64,000 bases of DNA from Spirochaetota bacterium (lineage in GTDB: Bacteria; Spirochaetota; UBA4802; UBA5550): contig JAGNKX010000016.1 of NCBI GenBank assembly GCA_017999915.1, positions 62,001 to 126,000 on the forward strand. The letters are read 5' to 3'. The position numbers and the translations under genes were made by a program. Shown here piece by piece: positions 1,562 through 9,960 of this stretch (positions are counted from its first letter, which is position 1; each line of letters starts with the position of its first letter). The notes under the pieces were generated by a model, which was given only the letters and a program-made list of their open reading frames with translations, searched no databases and had not been told where the DNA came from.

Positions 1562-3265
1562 ATGAAAACACGACATTCAACAACACGATATGCATCCATC
1601 TCTCTCTCCATCTTACTGCTGGTGATCGCGGGGAGCGGTGCCGTGCGGTCGAACGAAAAGAACGTGATACTGAAGCAATTTCCCACGAAGTACCACGTGA
1701 AAATGACCCTGAAGCTCGACAAAAACGCCTATGATTTCTCCGGGGCCGGGGACTTCAGGCTCTACCTGCTCAGCCCCGTGCCGACCACGAACCAGTACCA
1801 CGACGTGGGACTGGTGTCATTCAACAAGGGGAAGCTCATTCCCTTCGACAACGATAACCAGCGCATACTGGTAAACCAGGGAGTAAACAGCCTCCCCGAC
1901 GACATCCAGCTTGAATACGACATCACGGTGTACAGCGTCCATGTAGACTTCAATTCCATCGGCGAAATCTATCCCTACGATAAGACTACCGATGAATACA
2001 GGAAAAACACCCGCGATTACGGCTCCATTGAGATCAACCATCCGAAAATCAAGGAGATGGGGAATTCCCTGCGCAAGACATCGAAGAACGACCTGGAGTA
2101 CGCGCGGAACGCCTTTCAGGCTTTGCAGAAGGCCCTGAAATGGAAAACCACGGGTAAGTACGGGAACCTCACCGACATATTCAACAACCGGGGCGGAGAT
2201 TGCTGGGCCCTCTCCACCGTGTATATCTCCCTGCTGCGCCACCATGGCATCCCGGCCCGGTATGTCACCGGCGGATCGAAAAATGACAAAGCTGAGTTCA
2301 GCGGTCACGTGTGGCCCGAATTCTACCTGGAGCGCTACGGATGGATACCGGTGGACGTGTCCATGACTTCCGCGGTCCCCTATTTCGGCTACTTCAGCGG
2401 AACCCTGATCGGCTTCTACCGCGGCAACGATTTTCTCTACACCCTCGACGGGGTCCAGAGAAAAACCGACGAGGTCCAGACCTGGGGACGTGAGTTCAGG
2501 TGCGGCGGCCGCTGTCCCACGGGAACATATTCCTATAACGCCCGCTTCGATATTACGACTCTGAAGCAATCGAACATAGGGGATGAATACAACAGCGACG
2601 GAAACCGCCGCCGGAGAGCCGCCGCCCTGATGCAGATGGTGAACGCGGAAAGGCGCGGCAGGGGCCTCAAGGAATTCACCAGATCCGAGAACCTGGACAG
2701 TGCGTTAAAGCAGTATATAATCGAAAAAAACGTAAACGGAAGAGAGCCGGACATTTGGAAGGAAATGGCAAAGCAGCACTATGCCACACAGGGGCTATAC
2801 TACCGGTGGAATGCATTATTTGACGCTGACCTTAACCTGGAGCCCTATATACTTAAGGATGTGAAGGATATAAAAGGCCTCTTTGATCCGGCGTTTACCG
2901 AGATAGGCATAGGCTACTTCTACGATCAAAATAAGGGCCTTCATAATTACATGGTTGCACTGACCATTCCCAAGGAACCCTGCGCGATTTCCGCGAAGGA
3001 CCTGGGGGCCGCCCCTGGAGAAACCCTGACTTACGATTGTCCGGCAGGGTGCCGGGGCGGGTCCCTCTGGGGCACCGACACCTACACCGCGGACTCCTCG
3101 ATCTGCGCCGCCGCGCGCCACAGCGGCGTCATCGGCGACAGGGGCGGCCGCGTCAGGATCAAGATCGTCCCCGGCCTGGAATCGTACAGCGGGAGCGAAC
3201 GCAACGGCGTGAGGAGCGAAAGCTGGAAGGCCTTTGAAAAAAGCTTCACCGTGGAAAAGGACTGA
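1562..3265 (+). CDS. Secreted transglutaminase-like / CAP-domain fusion protein
   Basis: A 567-residue exported protein with an N-terminal signal sequence (hydrophobic stretch about 12-28, no lipobox Cys). The central part is a transglutaminase-like cysteine peptidase domain: Cys214 in GGDCWALS, His249 in GHVWPEFY and Asp265 in WIPVDVSM form the expected triad. Residues about 350-470 resemble a CAP/SCP domain (MVNAERRGRGLKEFTRSENL near its start, then FTEIGIGYFYD). The tail (about 475-567) has four cysteines and no family I recognise. Substrate unknown; a role on envelope peptides or proteins is inferred. The gene stands alone behind a repeat cluster and ends 23 bp before a convergent gene. 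There is no clear ribosome site before ATG 1562. Confidence 0.75.
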   Translation: MKTRHSTTRYASISLSILLLVIAGSGAVRSNEKNVILKQFPTKYHVKMTLKLDKNAYDFSGAGDFRLYLLSPVPTTNQYHDVGLVSFNKGKLIPFDNDNQRILVNQGVNSLPDDIQLEYDITVYSVHVDFNSIGEIYPYDKTTDEYRKNTRDYGSIEINHPKIKEMGNSLRKTSKNDLEYARNAFQALQKALKWKTTGKYGNLTDIFNNRGGDCWALSTVYISLLRHHGIPARYVTGGSKNDKAEFSGHVWPEFYLERYGWIPVDVSMTSAVPYFGYFSGTLIGFYRGNDFLYTLDGVQRKTDEVQTWGREFRCGGRCPTGTYSYNARFDITTLKQSNIGDEYNSDGNRRRRAAALMQMVNAERRGRGLKEFTRSENLDSALKQYIIEKNVNGREPDIWKEMAKQHYATQGLYYRWNALFDADLNLEPYILKDVKDIKGLFDPAFTEIGIGYFYDQNKGLHNYMVALTIPKEPCAISAKDLGAAPGETLTYDCPAGCRGGSLWGTDTYTADSSICAAARHSGVIGDRGGRVRIKIVPGLESYSGSERNGVRSESWKAFEKSFTVEKD

Positions 3266-3288: not shown

Positions 3289-4521
3289 CTACAGAACCTT
3301 CGCCATCGCCCTGCGGACGCGTAATTCGATTTCCGCGATGCCGTCTATATCGATCGTCAGCGAGGGCCTGAACACCACGCTGTTCGCGGCCACCTCGCCC
3401 TGGACCGCCAGGAGACCGATTTTGCGGGCTTCGCGGCAGAACCGCGCCGCCGTGGCATCATCCCTAAACAGGAGCGCCTGCAGCAGGCCTATGCCGCTGA
3501 CGGAAACCTTCCCGTGAGTTCCGGCGGCTATACCGGACAGGGCTGCGTGTAGCTTTTCGCCCATCAGGACCGCGCTCTCCCAGGGCTTCGTCTCCTCGTA
3601 CAGGTCCAGGGCCTTCATGGCGACCCGGCACCCGATGTCGTGCCCGCCGAAGGTGCACATGTGAATCAGGGGGTGCGCGTCAAAAAACTTCCTGGTCTTG
3701 ATGGTAAACATGAGGGCCGTCATGGGGAACACGCCGCCGCTCATGGCTTCACCAAGGATAAGGATGTCCGGCACGATATCGTAATGCTCGTAGGCGAACT
3801 TTTTTCCCGTCCTTCCGAAACCGGTCTGGGTCTCGTCGAATATCAGGAACGCTCCCTTTCTATCGCAGATCCTGCGCAGCTCACGGTAATATTCCGCGCC
3901 GGCCCGGCGGCAGCCATTCTCCGCCTGTACAGGCTCCATGATGACCGCCGCGGTCTTCCGCGAAACGGCCCTCTTCATGGCGCCAATGTCACCGAAGGGG
4001 ACCGTCGCCACCGCGGGAATAAGCGCCCCGAACATTCCCTTACCGGTCCGCTCAGACAGGGTTACCGCGAAGCCGGTCTGCCCGTACCATCCTCCGTCGA
4101 CCGTTACAAGCTCCGGCCGGCCGGTGTGTCCCCGGGCAAGCTTGCAGGCGGCATCGACCGGCTCGCCGCGCACCACCGTGTACAGGACCGACTCCAGGTT
4201 CCCGGGAACAAACCGGGCAAGTTTCTGACCGAGAAGCGCCTTCTCCTCGGAAAGCATGATGAAATTGCCCTGGTCGACCTTCCGGACCGAGGCCTCCAAC
4301 TCCGAGCGCAGCTCTTCGTTATTGCGCCCCAGGTTGTAGATCCCGGCCGAGGTGTAGCAATCGATATAGCTCTTCCCGTCGGTATCGCACAGGATGACGC
4401 CCGCCCTTTCTCCTTCAAGTACATCAAGGCCTTTTTCGGCAAGGGCCGCCACCAGGCCCTTCGAGAAAACCTGCTCGGCCGTTCTCATCAGTGATTGTTT
4501 ATTAACACGTTTCACATTCAT
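3289..4521 (-). CDS. Class III aminotransferase-like protein lacking the PLP lysine
   Basis: A 410-residue fold-type I aminotransferase class III homologue. The start chosen is ATG 4521 (NVKRVNKQSLMRTAEQ), behind AGGAG; the open frame extends further upstream but without support. FDETQTGFGRTGK retains the pyridine-binding Asp. In the segment that should carry the Schiff-base lysine, the sequence reads ILGEAMSGGVFP: codon GAA gives Glu258 where the neighbouring paralogue has Lys266 (VAKSIGGGVYP). The phosphate-binding loop is also altered (VVRGEPVDA against AGSGADAIE) and YHGHS is WYGQT. It is therefore likely to be catalytically dead or repurposed. It lies 14 bp downstream of the intact paralogue in one operon, suggesting a heteromeric partner or regulatory subunit (inference). 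Confidence 0.85.
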   Translation of the reverse strand: MNVKRVNKQSLMRTAEQVFSKGLVAALAEKGLDVLEGERAGVILCDTDGKSYIDCYTSAGIYNLGRNNEELRSELEASVRKVDQGNFIMLSEEKALLGQKLARFVPGNLESVLYTVVRGEPVDAACKLARGHTGRPELVTVDGGWYGQTGFAVTLSERTGKGMFGALIPAVATVPFGDIGAMKRAVSRKTAAVIMEPVQAENGCRRAGAEYYRELRRICDRKGAFLIFDETQTGFGRTGKKFAYEHYDIVPDILILGEAMSGGVFPMTALMFTIKTRKFFDAHPLIHMCTFGGHDIGCRVAMKALDLYEETKPWESAVLMGEKLHAALSGIAAGTHGKVSVSGIGLLQALLFRDDATAARFCREARKIGLLAVQGEVAANSVVFRPSLTIDIDGIAEIELRVRRAMAKVL

Positions 4522-4535
4522 TGCATGGCTCCTTT

Positions 4536-5921
4536 TTATGAGAATAACTCTTCGAGATCCCTCAGGAAATTGAACGCCTTTATCTGAACATGCATGTTGT
4601 CGAGCATCATCCTGATGAACGGGATTCTCGCCATGGGGAAAAAGATCACCAGGTACGGTTTCATCCTCCTCACCGCCTTGCGTATCCGCACCAGGAGGTC
4701 CTCGATCTCCTCCATGGTGACCATGATCGGGATCTGAAAGCGCATGACCTGGGGGGCGTTCCCGGAAAAGACCGCCCATACCCCTTCCCGCGCGAGGCAG
4801 TCCGCCATGAGAGCGCCGATAAATTCGTACTGATATTCAACGCCGATCATCAGGCCCTGGCCGCGGACCTCCTTCACGATCCTGGGGTTCTCGCTGGTGA
4901 TCTCGTTCAGTCCATCCTTGAACCGCTTGCCGGCCCGCGCCGCGTTTTCCCAAACTTTGTTTTCTACCAGGTAATCGATGACCTTCGAGGATACGCGGCA
5001 CCCGAGGTCCGTGCCCCCGCCCGAGGACACGTGGAAAAACGGGTTCTTGTTCACAAAACCGGTCAGGAGCGGGATATCGCGGTAGACAAGCGCGGCGTTC
5101 GGGTATACGCCGCCGCCTATCGACTTGGCCACCATCATGATGTCGGGCACGACGCCGGAGTGCTCGGAGCCCCAGAACTTCCCGGTACGGCAGAACCCGG
5201 TCTGCACCTCGTCGAAGAGCAGCATGATCCCGAGATCATCGCAGAGCCCACGCAGTCCCCTGAGATATTCGGCGGTCGCCACGTGGATCCCCCCCTCCCC
5301 CTGCACCGGCTCGAGAATGATCGCGGCCGTGTTCCGCGACGCTACCTTCTTCACCTCGCCGAGGTCGCCATGATGGACAAACCTGAAATCGGGCATGAGG
5401 GGCCGGAACATTTCCTTGTAATAGTCCTTGCCGTTCGCCGAAAGGGTAAAGCCGGAATGGCCGTGATAGGCCTTATCCATCGAGATGATCTCTTTCCGTC
5501 CGGTGGCGCCAAGGGCGAGCTTGAGGGCGCCCTCTATGGCGTCGGCCCCGCTGCCGGCATAGAGCATTTTATTCAGGTCGCCCGGGCAGATCGAAACCAG
5601 CTTTTTGGCGAATTCTATCTTCTCGGGGGAGAGCAGGAGCGCGCTCCCCATGTCATACTCCCTGGCGGCGCCGGCGAGCTCTTCGATGACATACGGGTTT
5701 CCCCTGCCGACGTTAAAGCATCCGGCGGAGGAAAACGCGTCGATGATCGGCCTTCCGGTCTCTTTTTCGATGAATTTGATCCCCGACCTGCGGTCCTCGT
5801 GCATGTCAAGGTGCGCGCATCTCAGATAGCGGACCTGTCCGTGCGAGATGTGCCTGCCGAACAGCTTCAGCTTTGCTTCCTTTTCAGCCCTGTTCTTCTT
5901 TTTGTATTCACGAAGGCTCAT
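4536..5921 (-). CDS. Class III PLP-dependent aminotransferase
   Basis: A 461-residue class III aminotransferase (ornithine/acetylornithine/GABA transaminase superfamily); the substrate cannot be assigned. Visible motifs: AGSGADAIEGALKLA, the Tyr-His-Gly-His motif, EPVQGEGG, FDEVQTGFCRTGK (pyridine-binding Asp) and MMVAKSIGGGVYPN with PLP lysine Lys266. I start at ATG 5921 (SLREYKKKNRAEKE), placed correctly behind GAGGAGG; ATGs 9 and 15 bp upstream lie within or before that ribosome site. The C-terminal 45 residues (MKPYLVIFFPMARIPFIRM onward) exceed the usual family end. It leads the operon with the lysine-less paralogue at 3289-4521, and has its own promoter and TetR-type operator at 6023-6070. 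Confidence 0.88.
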   Translation of the reverse strand: MSLREYKKKNRAEKEAKLKLFGRHISHGQVRYLRCAHLDMHEDRRSGIKFIEKETGRPIIDAFSSAGCFNVGRGNPYVIEELAGAAREYDMGSALLLSPEKIEFAKKLVSICPGDLNKMLYAGSGADAIEGALKLALGATGRKEIISMDKAYHGHSGFTLSANGKDYYKEMFRPLMPDFRFVHHGDLGEVKKVASRNTAAIILEPVQGEGGIHVATAEYLRGLRGLCDDLGIMLLFDEVQTGFCRTGKFWGSEHSGVVPDIMMVAKSIGGGVYPNAALVYRDIPLLTGFVNKNPFFHVSSGGGTDLGCRVSSKVIDYLVENKVWENAARAGKRFKDGLNEITSENPRIVKEVRGQGLMIGVEYQYEFIGALMADCLAREGVWAVFSGNAPQVMRFQIPIMVTMEEIEDLLVRIRKAVRRMKPYLVIFFPMARIPFIRMMLDNMHVQIKAFNFLRDLEELFS

Positions 5922-6070: not shown

Positions 6071-6230
6071 TATCTTTTTCTATCTTCCCGGTTTTTTTCA
6101 TTTGCTTTTCTTTATTTTTATTCTTTTCTTGACTATTTGTTTGCGATACGCGACAGAATGGATATATTAATAGCACAGAACCGCCGCCCGGAACACACCA
6201 TCGCTGGCGCGGCGGAACAAGGTGACGGCC

Positions 6231-6830
6231 ATGCCCCGGAAAAGCGTTCAGGAAGAGAGGCGGATACAGATTTACAAGGCGCTCACGAGATGCCTTCTTA
6301 AAAAATCATTCAGCGAAACATCCATCAAGGATATAGCGAAGACGGCCGGCGTCAACCACGGGGTCCTCCACTATTACTTCAAGAACAAGGAAGACATCTT
6401 GCTGAACTATATCGATTGGGTCGTGGTGCACTATCACGACATGTACCAGGAGTGGGTTGATTCGCACAGCAGGCGGAAGATCGACAAGAAGGCGTATTTG
6501 CGGGACTTCGCCGAGTTCATGATGGACCGCCTCTCCCTCGACGACACCCTGTCGCGCGTGTTCGTCGAGATATGGGAGATCGCCATGTACAATAAAAAGG
6601 TGCGCCTCAAGCTCCAGAACCTCTACCGGGAATGGTTCCGAACAATCAAGCAGGTGATCGACCATTCTTTTCCCCGTTCCGCCGAGGCCAAAAAAATCAG
6701 CCTTCTGCTCGTGCCTTTCAGCGAAGGCATGTCGCTCTTCTCGGTTCTGATGCCCAAGGACGAGATCAACCCGAAGGAACTCATGATGTGGATGCTCAAT
6801 CTCATTATTGGCGTGATGAACAAGGAATGA
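6231..6830 (+). CDS. TetR family transcriptional regulator
   Basis: A 199-residue TetR repressor. The helix-turn-helix lies at residues about 20-55: FSETSIKDIAKTAGVNHGVL followed by HYYFKNKEDILLNY, typical for the family. The remaining helical part is the ligand/dimer domain (BetI/AcrR-like); the ligand is unknown. Start ATG 6231 follows AAGGTGA; an in-frame GTG at 6222 is less likely. It is divergent from the aminotransferase operon and upstream of the transhydrogenase operon; an almost identical 20-bp palindrome sits at each flank, so it probably controls both neighbours. A possible promoter for tetR itself is TTGCGA (6141) and TATATT (6163). Confidence 0.92.
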   Translation: MPRKSVQEERRIQIYKALTRCLLKKSFSETSIKDIAKTAGVNHGVLHYYFKNKEDILLNYIDWVVVHYHDMYQEWVDSHSRRKIDKKAYLRDFAEFMMDRLSLDDTLSRVFVEIWEIAMYNKKVRLKLQNLYREWFRTIKQVIDHSFPRSAEAKKISLLLVPFSEGMSLFSVLMPKDEINPKELMMWMLNLIIGVMNKE

Positions 6831-6845
6831 ATGCATAAAAATGTA

Positions 6846-6894
6846 TTGACAAACCGGACCATATAGTTTAGTTGGTTGACTAACTAAACTATAT
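6846..6894 (+). promoter_or_regulatory. Promoter and TetR-type operator of the transhydrogenase operon
   Basis: A large palindrome at 6861-6894 with perfect 13-bp arms (ATATAGTTTAGTT / AACTAAACTATAT) around an 8-bp centre. Its core, TTAGTTGGTTGACTAACTAA (6868-6887), is the reverse complement of the operator at 6023-6042 with one mismatch. A consensus -35 box TTGACA (6846-6851) stands 16 bp before TTAGTT, so the operator would cover the -10 region. Location between tetR and pntAA implies control of the latter. Confidence 0.78.
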
Positions 6895-6946
6895 GGAACC
6901 GCGCCGTTCGTTTCCAAGCGTCGATTCTCAAGCAAGGAGCGTGCGT

Positions 6947-8125
6947 ATGAACTTTAAAGGCCTGATCGTAGGGATACCAAAAGAGATCATGGAACATGAA
7001 TTCAGGGTGGCGGCCATCCCCGACACCGTGAAAAAGCTCGTCGCCCAGGACGCCCGGGTGGTGATCGAGTCGGGGGCCGGCGCCGGCGCTCACTTCTCCG
7101 ACGATGAATACCGGTCGGCTGGCGCGGAGATAGAGCCCGATTGCGAAAAAATCTATGCCGCGGCGGACATCATACTGAAAGTCAAGGAGCCCGTCTTCAA
7201 CGAGGCCAGGGGCCGGCACGAGGTCTCCATGATGAGGAAGGGCCAGGTCCTCATCAGCTTTCTCCACCCCGCGTCGCCGGTCAACCACCGGATGATCCGC
7301 GACCTCGCAAAGCAGGGCGTCACCGGGCTCACCCTCGACGGCATACCGCGGATAACGCGCGCCCAGGCCATGGACGCGCTCACCTCCATGAGCACCGTGG
7401 CGGGATATAAGAGCATCATCATGGCCGCCGGGGTCTTTACCCGGTTCCTCCCCATGATCGGCACCGCGGTCGGCGTGATACAGCCGGCCCAGGTCTTCGT
7501 GATCGGCGCCGGCGTTGCCGGTCTCCAGGCCATCGCCACCGCCAAGCGGCTCGGCGCCGTCGTTACCGCCGCGGACGTGCGGCCCGACGCCATCGAGCAG
7601 GCGAGGAGCCTGGGCGTGAAGGTGGTCGAAACCGGTGTTCCCCCCGAGGTCGCCATCGGCCGCGGCGGCTACGCCCAGCACCTGTCCGACGAATGGATCT
7701 CGAAGGAGCGGCAGGCGATCCGCGAGGCGGTGGCCGCATCCGATATCCTCATCCTCACCGCCCTCGTGCCGGGAAGGATCGCGCCCATGCTGGTGACAGG
7801 GGACATGGTAAAATCCATGCGTCCCGGCTCCGTGATTGTCGACATCTCCATCGACCAGGGAGGCAACTGCGAGCTGACGAAGTTCGGCGAGACCGCGGTG
7901 GAGCACGGCGTCACCATCTTCGGCACAAAGAACATCCCGGGCTCCGTGCCGACGAGCTCCACCTGGATGTTCGCGAACAACATACTCAATTTCGTGCAGT
8001 ACGTCGTAAAAGACGGCGCCATCAGCCTCGACCGCTCGGACGAGATCATCGCGTCGTCTCTCACAGCCATCGACGGGGAGATCGTGCACGCGGGCGCCCT
8101 CGAGGCGATGGCCGAAGTAAAGTAA
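6947..8125 (+). CDS. pntAA: NAD(P) transhydrogenase subunit alpha part 1 (dI, NAD-binding)
   Basis: A 392-residue soluble domain I of proton-translocating transhydrogenase, which binds NAD(H) and transfers hydride to NADP+ bound by PntB. The N-terminus GLIVGIPKEIMEHEFRVAAI and the Rossmann segment VFVIGAGVAGLQAIATAKRL are diagnostic of the AlaDH/PntA family. The length is that of split PntAA forms rather than fused PntA. Start ATG 6947 (NFKGLIVGIP) follows AAGGAG; an upstream in-frame ATG at 6893 lies inside the operator palindrome and is rejected. First gene of pntAA-pntAB-pntB, with the TetR operator just upstream. The operon would set NADPH/NADH balance at the inner membrane. Confidence 0.95.
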   Translation: MNFKGLIVGIPKEIMEHEFRVAAIPDTVKKLVAQDARVVIESGAGAGAHFSDDEYRSAGAEIEPDCEKIYAAADIILKVKEPVFNEARGRHEVSMMRKGQVLISFLHPASPVNHRMIRDLAKQGVTGLTLDGIPRITRAQAMDALTSMSTVAGYKSIIMAAGVFTRFLPMIGTAVGVIQPAQVFVIGAGVAGLQAIATAKRLGAVVTAADVRPDAIEQARSLGVKVVETGVPPEVAIGRGGYAQHLSDEWISKERQAIREAVAASDILILTALVPGRIAPMLVTGDMVKSMRPGSVIVDISIDQGGNCELTKFGETAVEHGVTIFGTKNIPGSVPTSSTWMFANNILNFVQYVVKDGAISLDRSDEIIASSLTAIDGEIVHAGALEAMAEVK

Positions 8126-8179
8126 CGCGGAAATGCCGGAACGGTTCCGCGTGAAAACCATACGACCGGAGGAAGTCCC

Positions 8180-8458
8180 ATGACAGAACTGCTGATTATG
8201 ATGTCCGTGCTCGCTTTCTCGTTCATCGTCGGGTACCTGTTCATATCCCGGGTCCCGCCCCTTCTCCACACGCCCCTCATGTCCATGACCAACGCCATTT
8301 CCGCCGTCACGATACTGGGAGGGCTCATACTCTTCTCGGTGGAGACGACCGCCGCGGAGAAAGCGGTGGCCGCCGTGGCCCTCGCCATGGCGGCCTTCAA
8401 CCTGGTGGGCGGCTTCGTGATCACGGCACGCATGACGGCCATGTTCAGGAAAAAATAA
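8180..8458 (+). CDS. pntAB: NAD(P) transhydrogenase subunit alpha part 2 (membrane)
   Basis: A 92-residue membrane subunit carrying the first membrane helices of domain II. It has three hydrophobic segments (about 3-25, 36-56, 62-84), and the pattern GYLFISRVPPLLHTPLMSMT is conserved in PntAB and the C-terminus of fused PntA. The ribosome site GGAGG lies at the normal distance from ATG 8180. It starts 54 bp after pntAA and is followed, after 104 bp, by pntB. The three-gene split is the form common outside enterobacteria. Confidence 0.95.
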   Translation: MTELLIMMSVLAFSFIVGYLFISRVPPLLHTPLMSMTNAISAVTILGGLILFSVETTAAEKAVAAVALAMAAFNLVGGFVITARMTAMFRKK

Positions 8459-8562
8459 AATACACCGCGGCACGGCTCCGGGGTTTGCGCGCGCTGCGAA
8501 CGAACCGGACGCCCGATAACGGCGGGCCCGCCCGGTAGAGGCAGTATCACAAGGAGGACAGG

Positions 8563-9960
8563 ATGACCGAACCGACCACCATCGCAAGCGATCTCATGAT
8601 AATCGTGCTGCTCTTCGCCGGCATATACCAGTTCAGGTTTCCCCGGGCGGCGCGCTTCGGCAACCTGACGGCCGCCGTCGCCCTGGGGTGCGCCGCGGGC
8701 CTGGTGCTGTACCGGAACGGCGTGGAGGACCCGGCGATCGTGGCGGCAGCCGTGGCAGCCGGCTCGGCCGCGGGATGGATCGTGGCCGCGAAGGTCACCA
8801 TGATACAGATACCGGCCATGGTCGCGTTCCAGCACGGGGCCGGCGGCGTCGCCGCCTTACTCATCTCGTACATCGAGCTCACGCGCGCCGGCGCTGCGGT
8901 CAGCTCCGTGGGGCAGGTGTCGGGCCTCCTGGGCATGGCCATCGGCGCGGCCACCTTCAGCGGCAGCATGGTGGCCGGCGGCAAGCTCGCCAATAAGATA
9001 AAGCAGACCCCCGTGGTGTTTCCGGCGCACAACCTGATGCTGGCGGGCCTGGCCCTCGCCGTCGCAGGCGCGGGATTCGGCGTTCATTACACCACCGATC
9101 CGCCCGCCCCCTTCGCCGTGGCCATGATCGCCCTTTCTATCGCCTTCGGAATCGTGTTCGCGGTGCGCATCGGCGGCGCCGACATGCCGGTCCTCATTTC
9201 GTTCCTCAACGCCGCTGCCGGGCTCGCTGCCGCCTTCTGCGGCGTCATCATGCAAAACAGGCTCCTGGTGGTCTGCGGCGCCACCGTGGCCGCTTCTGGC
9301 TCCATCCTTACCCAGGTCATGTGCCGGGCCATGAACCGGAGCCTCGGCAACATCTTTATCGGCATCCGCAATCAGGCGGCGGCAGCGCAGAGCGCCACCC
9401 CGGCTCCCCCGCCGAAAGCGCCCGCGGAGCAGGGCAATCGCGAAGACGCCATGGCAGGGGCAATCGGCGCCCTGGCTGAGGCGAAGAGCGTCATCATCAT
9501 ACCGGGCTACGGGATGGCCCTTGCGCAGGCGCAGCAGAAGGTAAAGGAGCTCTATGACCTGCTGGAAAGGCGGGGCGCCGAAGTGAAGTTCGCCATCCAT
9601 CCGGTGGCGGGAAGAATGCCGGGGCACATGAATGTGCTGCTGGCCGAGGTGGACATTCCCTACGATCATCTCTGCGAGATGGAAGCGATCAATCCCGAAT
9701 TCTCCGCGGCCGATGCGGTCCTGGTGGTGGGCGCCTGCGACGTGGTGAATCCGGCAGCCATTACCGCCGAAGGGACCCCCATCTATGGCATGCCGATCCT
9801 CAGGGCCGACGAGGCCCGGACCGTGATCGTGTGCAACCTCGATACCAGGCCCGGCTATTCAGGCGTTGAGAATACCCTTTACTCCAGGCCGAATGTAAAC
9901 TTTCTGGCCGGCAATGCCGCCGAAACGATAGCCCGCATCATCGAGGGACTGAGGCAGTGA
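8563..9960 (+). CDS. pntB: NAD(P) transhydrogenase subunit beta
   Basis: A 465-residue PntB. Residues 1-270 hold about eight or nine membrane helices of the proton channel, including VAFQHGAGGVAALLISY and GIRIGGADMPVLISFLN-like segments (here FAVRIGGADMPVLISFLNA). After a linker of Ala/Pro residues (about 280-295), the soluble NADP(H)-binding domain III runs to the end: SVIIIPGYGMALAQAQQKV, IHPVAGRMPGHMNVLLAE, VLVVGACDVVNPAA. All expected motifs are intact. Start ATG 8563 has AAGGAGG upstream. Last gene of the operon; its stop lies 12 bp from a convergent gene. Confidence 0.95.
   Translation: MTEPTTIASDLMIIVLLFAGIYQFRFPRAARFGNLTAAVALGCAAGLVLYRNGVEDPAIVAAAVAAGSAAGWIVAAKVTMIQIPAMVAFQHGAGGVAALLISYIELTRAGAAVSSVGQVSGLLGMAIGAATFSGSMVAGGKLANKIKQTPVVFPAHNLMLAGLALAVAGAGFGVHYTTDPPAPFAVAMIALSIAFGIVFAVRIGGADMPVLISFLNAAAGLAAAFCGVIMQNRLLVVCGATVAASGSILTQVMCRAMNRSLGNIFIGIRNQAAAAQSATPAPPPKAPAEQGNREDAMAGAIGALAEAKSVIIIPGYGMALAQAQQKVKELYDLLERRGAEVKFAIHPVAGRMPGHMNVLLAEVDIPYDHLCEMEAINPEFSAADAVLVVGACDVVNPAAITAEGTPIYGMPILRADEARTVIVCNLDTRPGYSGVENTLYSRPNVNFLAGNAAETIARIIEGLRQ

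Follow-up and report, generated by a model that had tools for sequence, protein, structure and literature searches.

A stretch of 64,000 nucleotides from a Spirochaetota bacterium (assembly GCA_017999915.1, contig JAGNKX010000016.1, positions 62,001 to 126,000; below, the window) carries two adjacent genes for class III aminotransferases, A and B, and in B the lysine that holds pyridoxal 5'-phosphate (PLP) is replaced by glutamate. From comparison of the two proteins with their relatives, it seems likely (a probability of about 0.8) that A and B assemble into an obligate heterodimer, or into two heterodimers joined as a dimer, and that each A–B unit has a single working active site. Gene A (4536..5921, minus strand) would encode the catalytic subunit, 461 amino acids long with about 45 extra C-terminal residues, and gene B (3289..4521, minus strand) a pseudo-subunit of 410 amino acids. 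A lies upstream of B, both frames are complete, and the 14-bp gap between them contains a ribosome-binding site for B, AGGAG (4529..4533, minus strand), 7 nt before its start at 4521. Both proteins matched Pfam family PF00202 (Aminotran_3; A 269.4 bits, B 209.8 bits, cutoff 30.5), and a Pfam search of both found no other matching family. Neither protein reached an NCBIfam cut-off, so no named activity could be attached to either.

We aligned both proteins to the Escherichia coli putrescine aminotransferase PatA (YgjG, PDB 4UOX), their nearest solved relative in sequence and also the closest solved fold. The PLP Schiff-base lysine of PatA, Lys300, corresponds to Lys266 of A (5124..5126, motif VAKSIGGGVYP) and to Glu258 of B (codon GAA, 3748..3750, motif LGEAMSGGVFP; these and the following residues are all on the minus strand). 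This replacement was the core of the original prediction, and the coordinates, strand, frames, 14-bp gap and motif all agreed with the sequence; the further altered cofactor motifs that it listed for B, VVRGEPVDA and WYGQT, and the retained pyridine-ring Asp are present as well. Arg118 of B (4168..4170) replaces the phosphate-cup glycine, Gly150 of PatA. The window A has the lysine, the phosphate-cup Gly, the Asp, the Gln and the substrate Arg. The structure of PatA (PMC4244111) shows two contributions from the partner subunit: its Thr332 binds the PLP phosphate, and its Phe327 lines the entrance. At the Thr332 position B has Thr290 (3652..3654), the predicted trans residue for its partner's PLP phosphate, and A has Ser300 (5022..5024), followed by Gly instead of Phe.

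The same pattern was then followed through 48 B and 44 A sequences aligned to PatA, whose numbering is used from here on; one B fragment (L098) ends before position 300, leaving 47 alignable B proteins there. Position 300 is Glu in 47/47 B and Lys in 44/44 A, and another 15 loci from Desulfobacterota, which partly come from the same genomes, have Glu as well. At position 150 of the phosphate cup 47/47 B have Arg and 43/43 A have Gly, and at position 426, the substrate Arg, which is kept in 44/44 A, 47/47 B have Leu, Val, Ile or Met. Position 273, a Val that stacks on the ring in PatA, is Thr or Ser in 48/48 B, and residue 180 is variable in B. Asp271 is retained in all rows, and the equivalents of Asp271, Gln274 and Glu243 are present in nearly all B. 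The Arg, Gly and Glu of the RGE motif of B and its Glu258 are invariant over deep divergence, and so is its trans segment Thr-Phe-Gly-Gly, with Thr at position 332 in 47/47. The A proteins have lost this threonine: of the 44, 17 have His, 7 Tyr, 6 Ser, 5 Ile and 4 Phe, with Leu, Cys and Val also occurring and Thr only once. The second A of the window's own genome has Phe. All 56 members of the homodimer-type groups C and D have Lys300, and all 56 also have Thr or Ser at position 332. When all columns conserved in these two groups were scanned without bias, 9 proved to be kept only in A, including Gly150, His181 and Lys300, and 3 only in B, namely Phe333, Pro429 and Glu152 (Asp in A).

Such reciprocal losses would be expected if A and B had to pair and shared a single composite active site. 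PatA is the product of one gene and has Lys300 and Thr332 in every subunit, whereas in the A–B pair these two residues are split between proteins. A would hold PLP through its Lys266 and its usual cis residues, and B, with no site of its own, would fold as a class III subunit and offer its Thr-Phe-Gly-Gly segment across the interface, where it would bind the phosphate of A's PLP and wall the substrate entrance. The mirror site would be dead from both sides, as B has no lysine, phosphate-cup Gly or substrate Arg and A no trans Thr-Phe. Arg118 and Glu258 may cancel each other's charge in the empty pocket of B. We do not expect B, with these replacements, to act as an aminotransferase by itself. 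This trans-threonine complementarity was not part of the original prediction, and neither were the spread of the pair over several phyla and its possible intermediate described below.

About 50 loci carry the A–B tandem, and they come from Spirochaetota, Desulfobacterota, Myxococcota, Hydrogenedentota and Actinomycetota. Scanning GTDB genomes gave pairs in Desulfobacterota (among them Desulfoluna limicola and D. butyratoxydans), in Hydrogenedentota, in a Thermoleophilia metagenome-assembled genome and in others titled Myxococcota or Deltaproteobacteria. Among 393 Spirochaetota genomes, 15 copies of A and 15 of B occur in the same 14, all of one order and all with tandem pairs, and the window's genome itself holds a second pair (L038), again with Glu in B, along with a lysine-bearing single relative of group C (L039). 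In the class of Desulfoluna (389 genomes), 13/13 genomes with A also have B, and in two more genomes with B the A gene is cut by the contig end or damaged at its 5' end. Wherever both genes were scored (43/43 loci), B follows directly behind A on the same strand; each remaining B gene sits at the end of a contig, except that of L096, whose over-long frame overlaps A, and no B was found without A immediately upstream where upstream DNA was present. The distance matrices of A and B correlated with r 0.91 over 42 pairs. No plasmid-borne copies were found at E 1e-60, and PADLOC gave no match to a defence system. The ratio of non-synonymous to synonymous substitutions (dN/dS) between relatives is 0.09–0.16 for B and 0.04–0.13 for A; B evolves faster than A, yet it is under purifying selection.

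After removal of the diagnostic columns, a phylogenetic tree grouped each of A, B and C into a single clade (support by the approximate likelihood ratio test SH-aLRT, 99–100). A pair from two Syntrophomonadaceae genomes (L101:106-2798; L194-L195) was placed basal to A (82) and to B (81), although the long branch of its second member, B', makes this placement unsure. In both genomes B' has Arg at position 150 and Ala or Ser at 180, yet it retains Lys300 and Arg426, and Thr332 is still present in its partner A'. The pair looks intermediate and is a candidate for an evolutionary one; if it is placed correctly, the phosphate cup would have been lost before the lysine. The original prediction regarded lysine-bearing homologues of B in related genomes as evidence against it. 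This distant sister lineage, about 40% identical, is the only one that we found, and all alignable B proteins proper have glutamate.

Two other groups of relatives were noticed. Single genes of group C (for example L039:8757-9986) have the lysine, but in 9/9 Glu243 is replaced by Thr and Arg426 by Gln, so the usual 2-oxo-acid half-reaction is probably not used by this group. A second tandem of class III aminotransferases, mainly in Desulfobacterota (L105, L109, L113, L114, L115, L117, L125, L127, L129, L132), has the lysine in both genes, and at the trans segment the second gene has NSFGG versus STFGG; this tandem may represent another heteromeric arrangement.

Structure prediction with AlphaFold2 (AF2) of A alone gave a predicted local distance difference test (pLDDT) score of 78.3 and a predicted template modelling (pTM) score of 0.82. 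We also modelled a natural in-frame pair (L062) as a single chain, with the stop codon of A read as Gln. The fused A–B chain reached pLDDT 83.7 and pTM 0.87 over 874 residues, which is above the expectation for two independently placed halves and consistent with an A–B dimer. The first 40 residues of A had pLDDT 34–50 alone and 52–81 in the fused chain, a contrast which is only suggestive because the proteins and alignments differ. The C-terminal extension of A was predicted to be helical with modest confidence.

Several points weigh against an obligate heterodimer. The confidence of the fused chain is no test against A–A or B–B dimers, since any class III pair may dock likewise and the chain has no homodimer control. 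Any two linked genes would show a correlation of distances like that of A and B. Because A and B each form one clade, each of the reciprocal losses may have happened just once, long ago. The A of one locus (L094) retains Thr at position 332, and the Ser of the window A could still bind phosphate, so that the window pair alone would not reveal the reciprocal pattern.

The original prediction described a dead class III subunit that is maintained next to its active partner as part of a heteromeric or regulatory arrangement. As far as sequences can tell, the heteromeric part is well supported by linkage, co-occurrence and the reciprocal residue losses; there is no need to invoke regulation alone, and B probably completes the catalytic site of A. 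The two roles are not mutually exclusive, and a bolder version that joins them, a previously undescribed, obligately heterodimeric class III family of several phyla in which a PLP subunit and a pseudo-subunit divide catalysis between them and the Arg/Glu pocket of the pseudo-subunit has become a sensor of an effector or substrate that controls the enzyme, appears improbable to us. We think it somewhat less plausible still that B is a regulatory subunit which dimerises with A and whose altered pocket, with Arg118 and Glu258, binds an effector gating A, with completion of A's active site not its main task. The invariance of the RGE motif and Glu258 does exceed the apparent needs of an empty pocket, but the trans Thr, Phe, Gly and Gly are invariant too, and their loss in A suggests a structural and catalytic role. 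That B is a separate homodimeric enzyme, using PLP or pyridoxamine phosphate without a lysine, or another cofactor, is very unlikely. Rare lysine-less fold-type I PLP enzymes exist, such as ColD with a His, and the retained equivalents of Asp271, Gln274 and Glu243 would fit one. The change of the phosphate-cup Gly to Arg and of Val273 to Thr or Ser, the variable residue 180 and the lost Arg426 oppose ordinary PLP binding, however, and strict linkage to A would be left unexplained. Finally, loss of a catalytic residue might point to a pseudogene or a base-call error at the glutamate codon, and both were rejected, given the full frame with its own ribosome site, the low dN/dS and the same Glu in all 47 orthologues from several phyla; the earlier view that the gene is not decayed was correct.

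With regard to function, a TetR-family regulator is encoded divergently beside the window pair (6222..6830, plus strand; PF00440, 44.1 bits), and clustering of neighbours showed a TetR gene flanking the pair in 19 loci besides the window. An alanine dehydrogenase gene lies beside the pair in 12 loci and at the second pair of the window's genome, with TIGR00518 above its cut-off in those tested. Other neighbours are amidohydrolases, at a number of loci, and, at a few, aldehyde:ferredoxin oxidoreductase. At the window pair alanine dehydrogenase is not adjacent; across the TetR gene there is instead a transhydrogenase-like PntA/PntB subunit pair (6893-9960), both members below NCBIfam cut-offs. 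The frequent alanine dehydrogenase neighbour suggests an amine:pyruvate transaminase. From the gene neighbours, A–B would be an amine-degrading enzyme with pyruvate as acceptor, probably moving amino groups between an amine and pyruvate/alanine, and in many hosts alanine dehydrogenase would free the ammonia. The taurine:pyruvate aminotransferase of Bilophila is a class III transaminase similarly paired with alanine dehydrogenase; to our knowledge it is a single-subunit enzyme, and nothing at the A–B loci indicates taurine. On the other side of the pair, the window encodes a putative secreted protein (1562-3265) with a transglutaminase-like domain and an LCCL domain, the latter, as far as we know, unusual in bacteria.

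The arrangement resembles serine palmitoyltransferase (SPTLC1/SPTLC2), where two homologous fold-type I PLP subunits have the lysine in only one of them. Its subunit hLCB1 lacks the lysine, and an hLCB1/hLCB2 heterodimer with a single active site has been proposed (PMC3794620). Serine palmitoyltransferase is, however, a eukaryotic, membrane-bound member of the alpha-oxoamine synthase family, whereas A and B are bacterial class III aminotransferases, both of PF00202, encoded by adjacent genes; the analogy suggests that A–B may work like serine palmitoyltransferase without belonging to it. We found no precedent for a class III heterodimer, but only open-access papers were searched and several queries were narrow, so this absence is weak evidence. 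Class III aminotransferases are much-used biocatalysts and normally homodimers. Profile-based annotation pipelines are likely to label gene B a functional aminotransferase. If the proposed heterodimer is true, the pair would document a stepwise route from a two-site homodimer to an enzyme with a pseudoenzyme, with the Syntrophomonadaceae lineage, whose B' has no phosphate-cup Gly but retains the lysine, as a possible step between.
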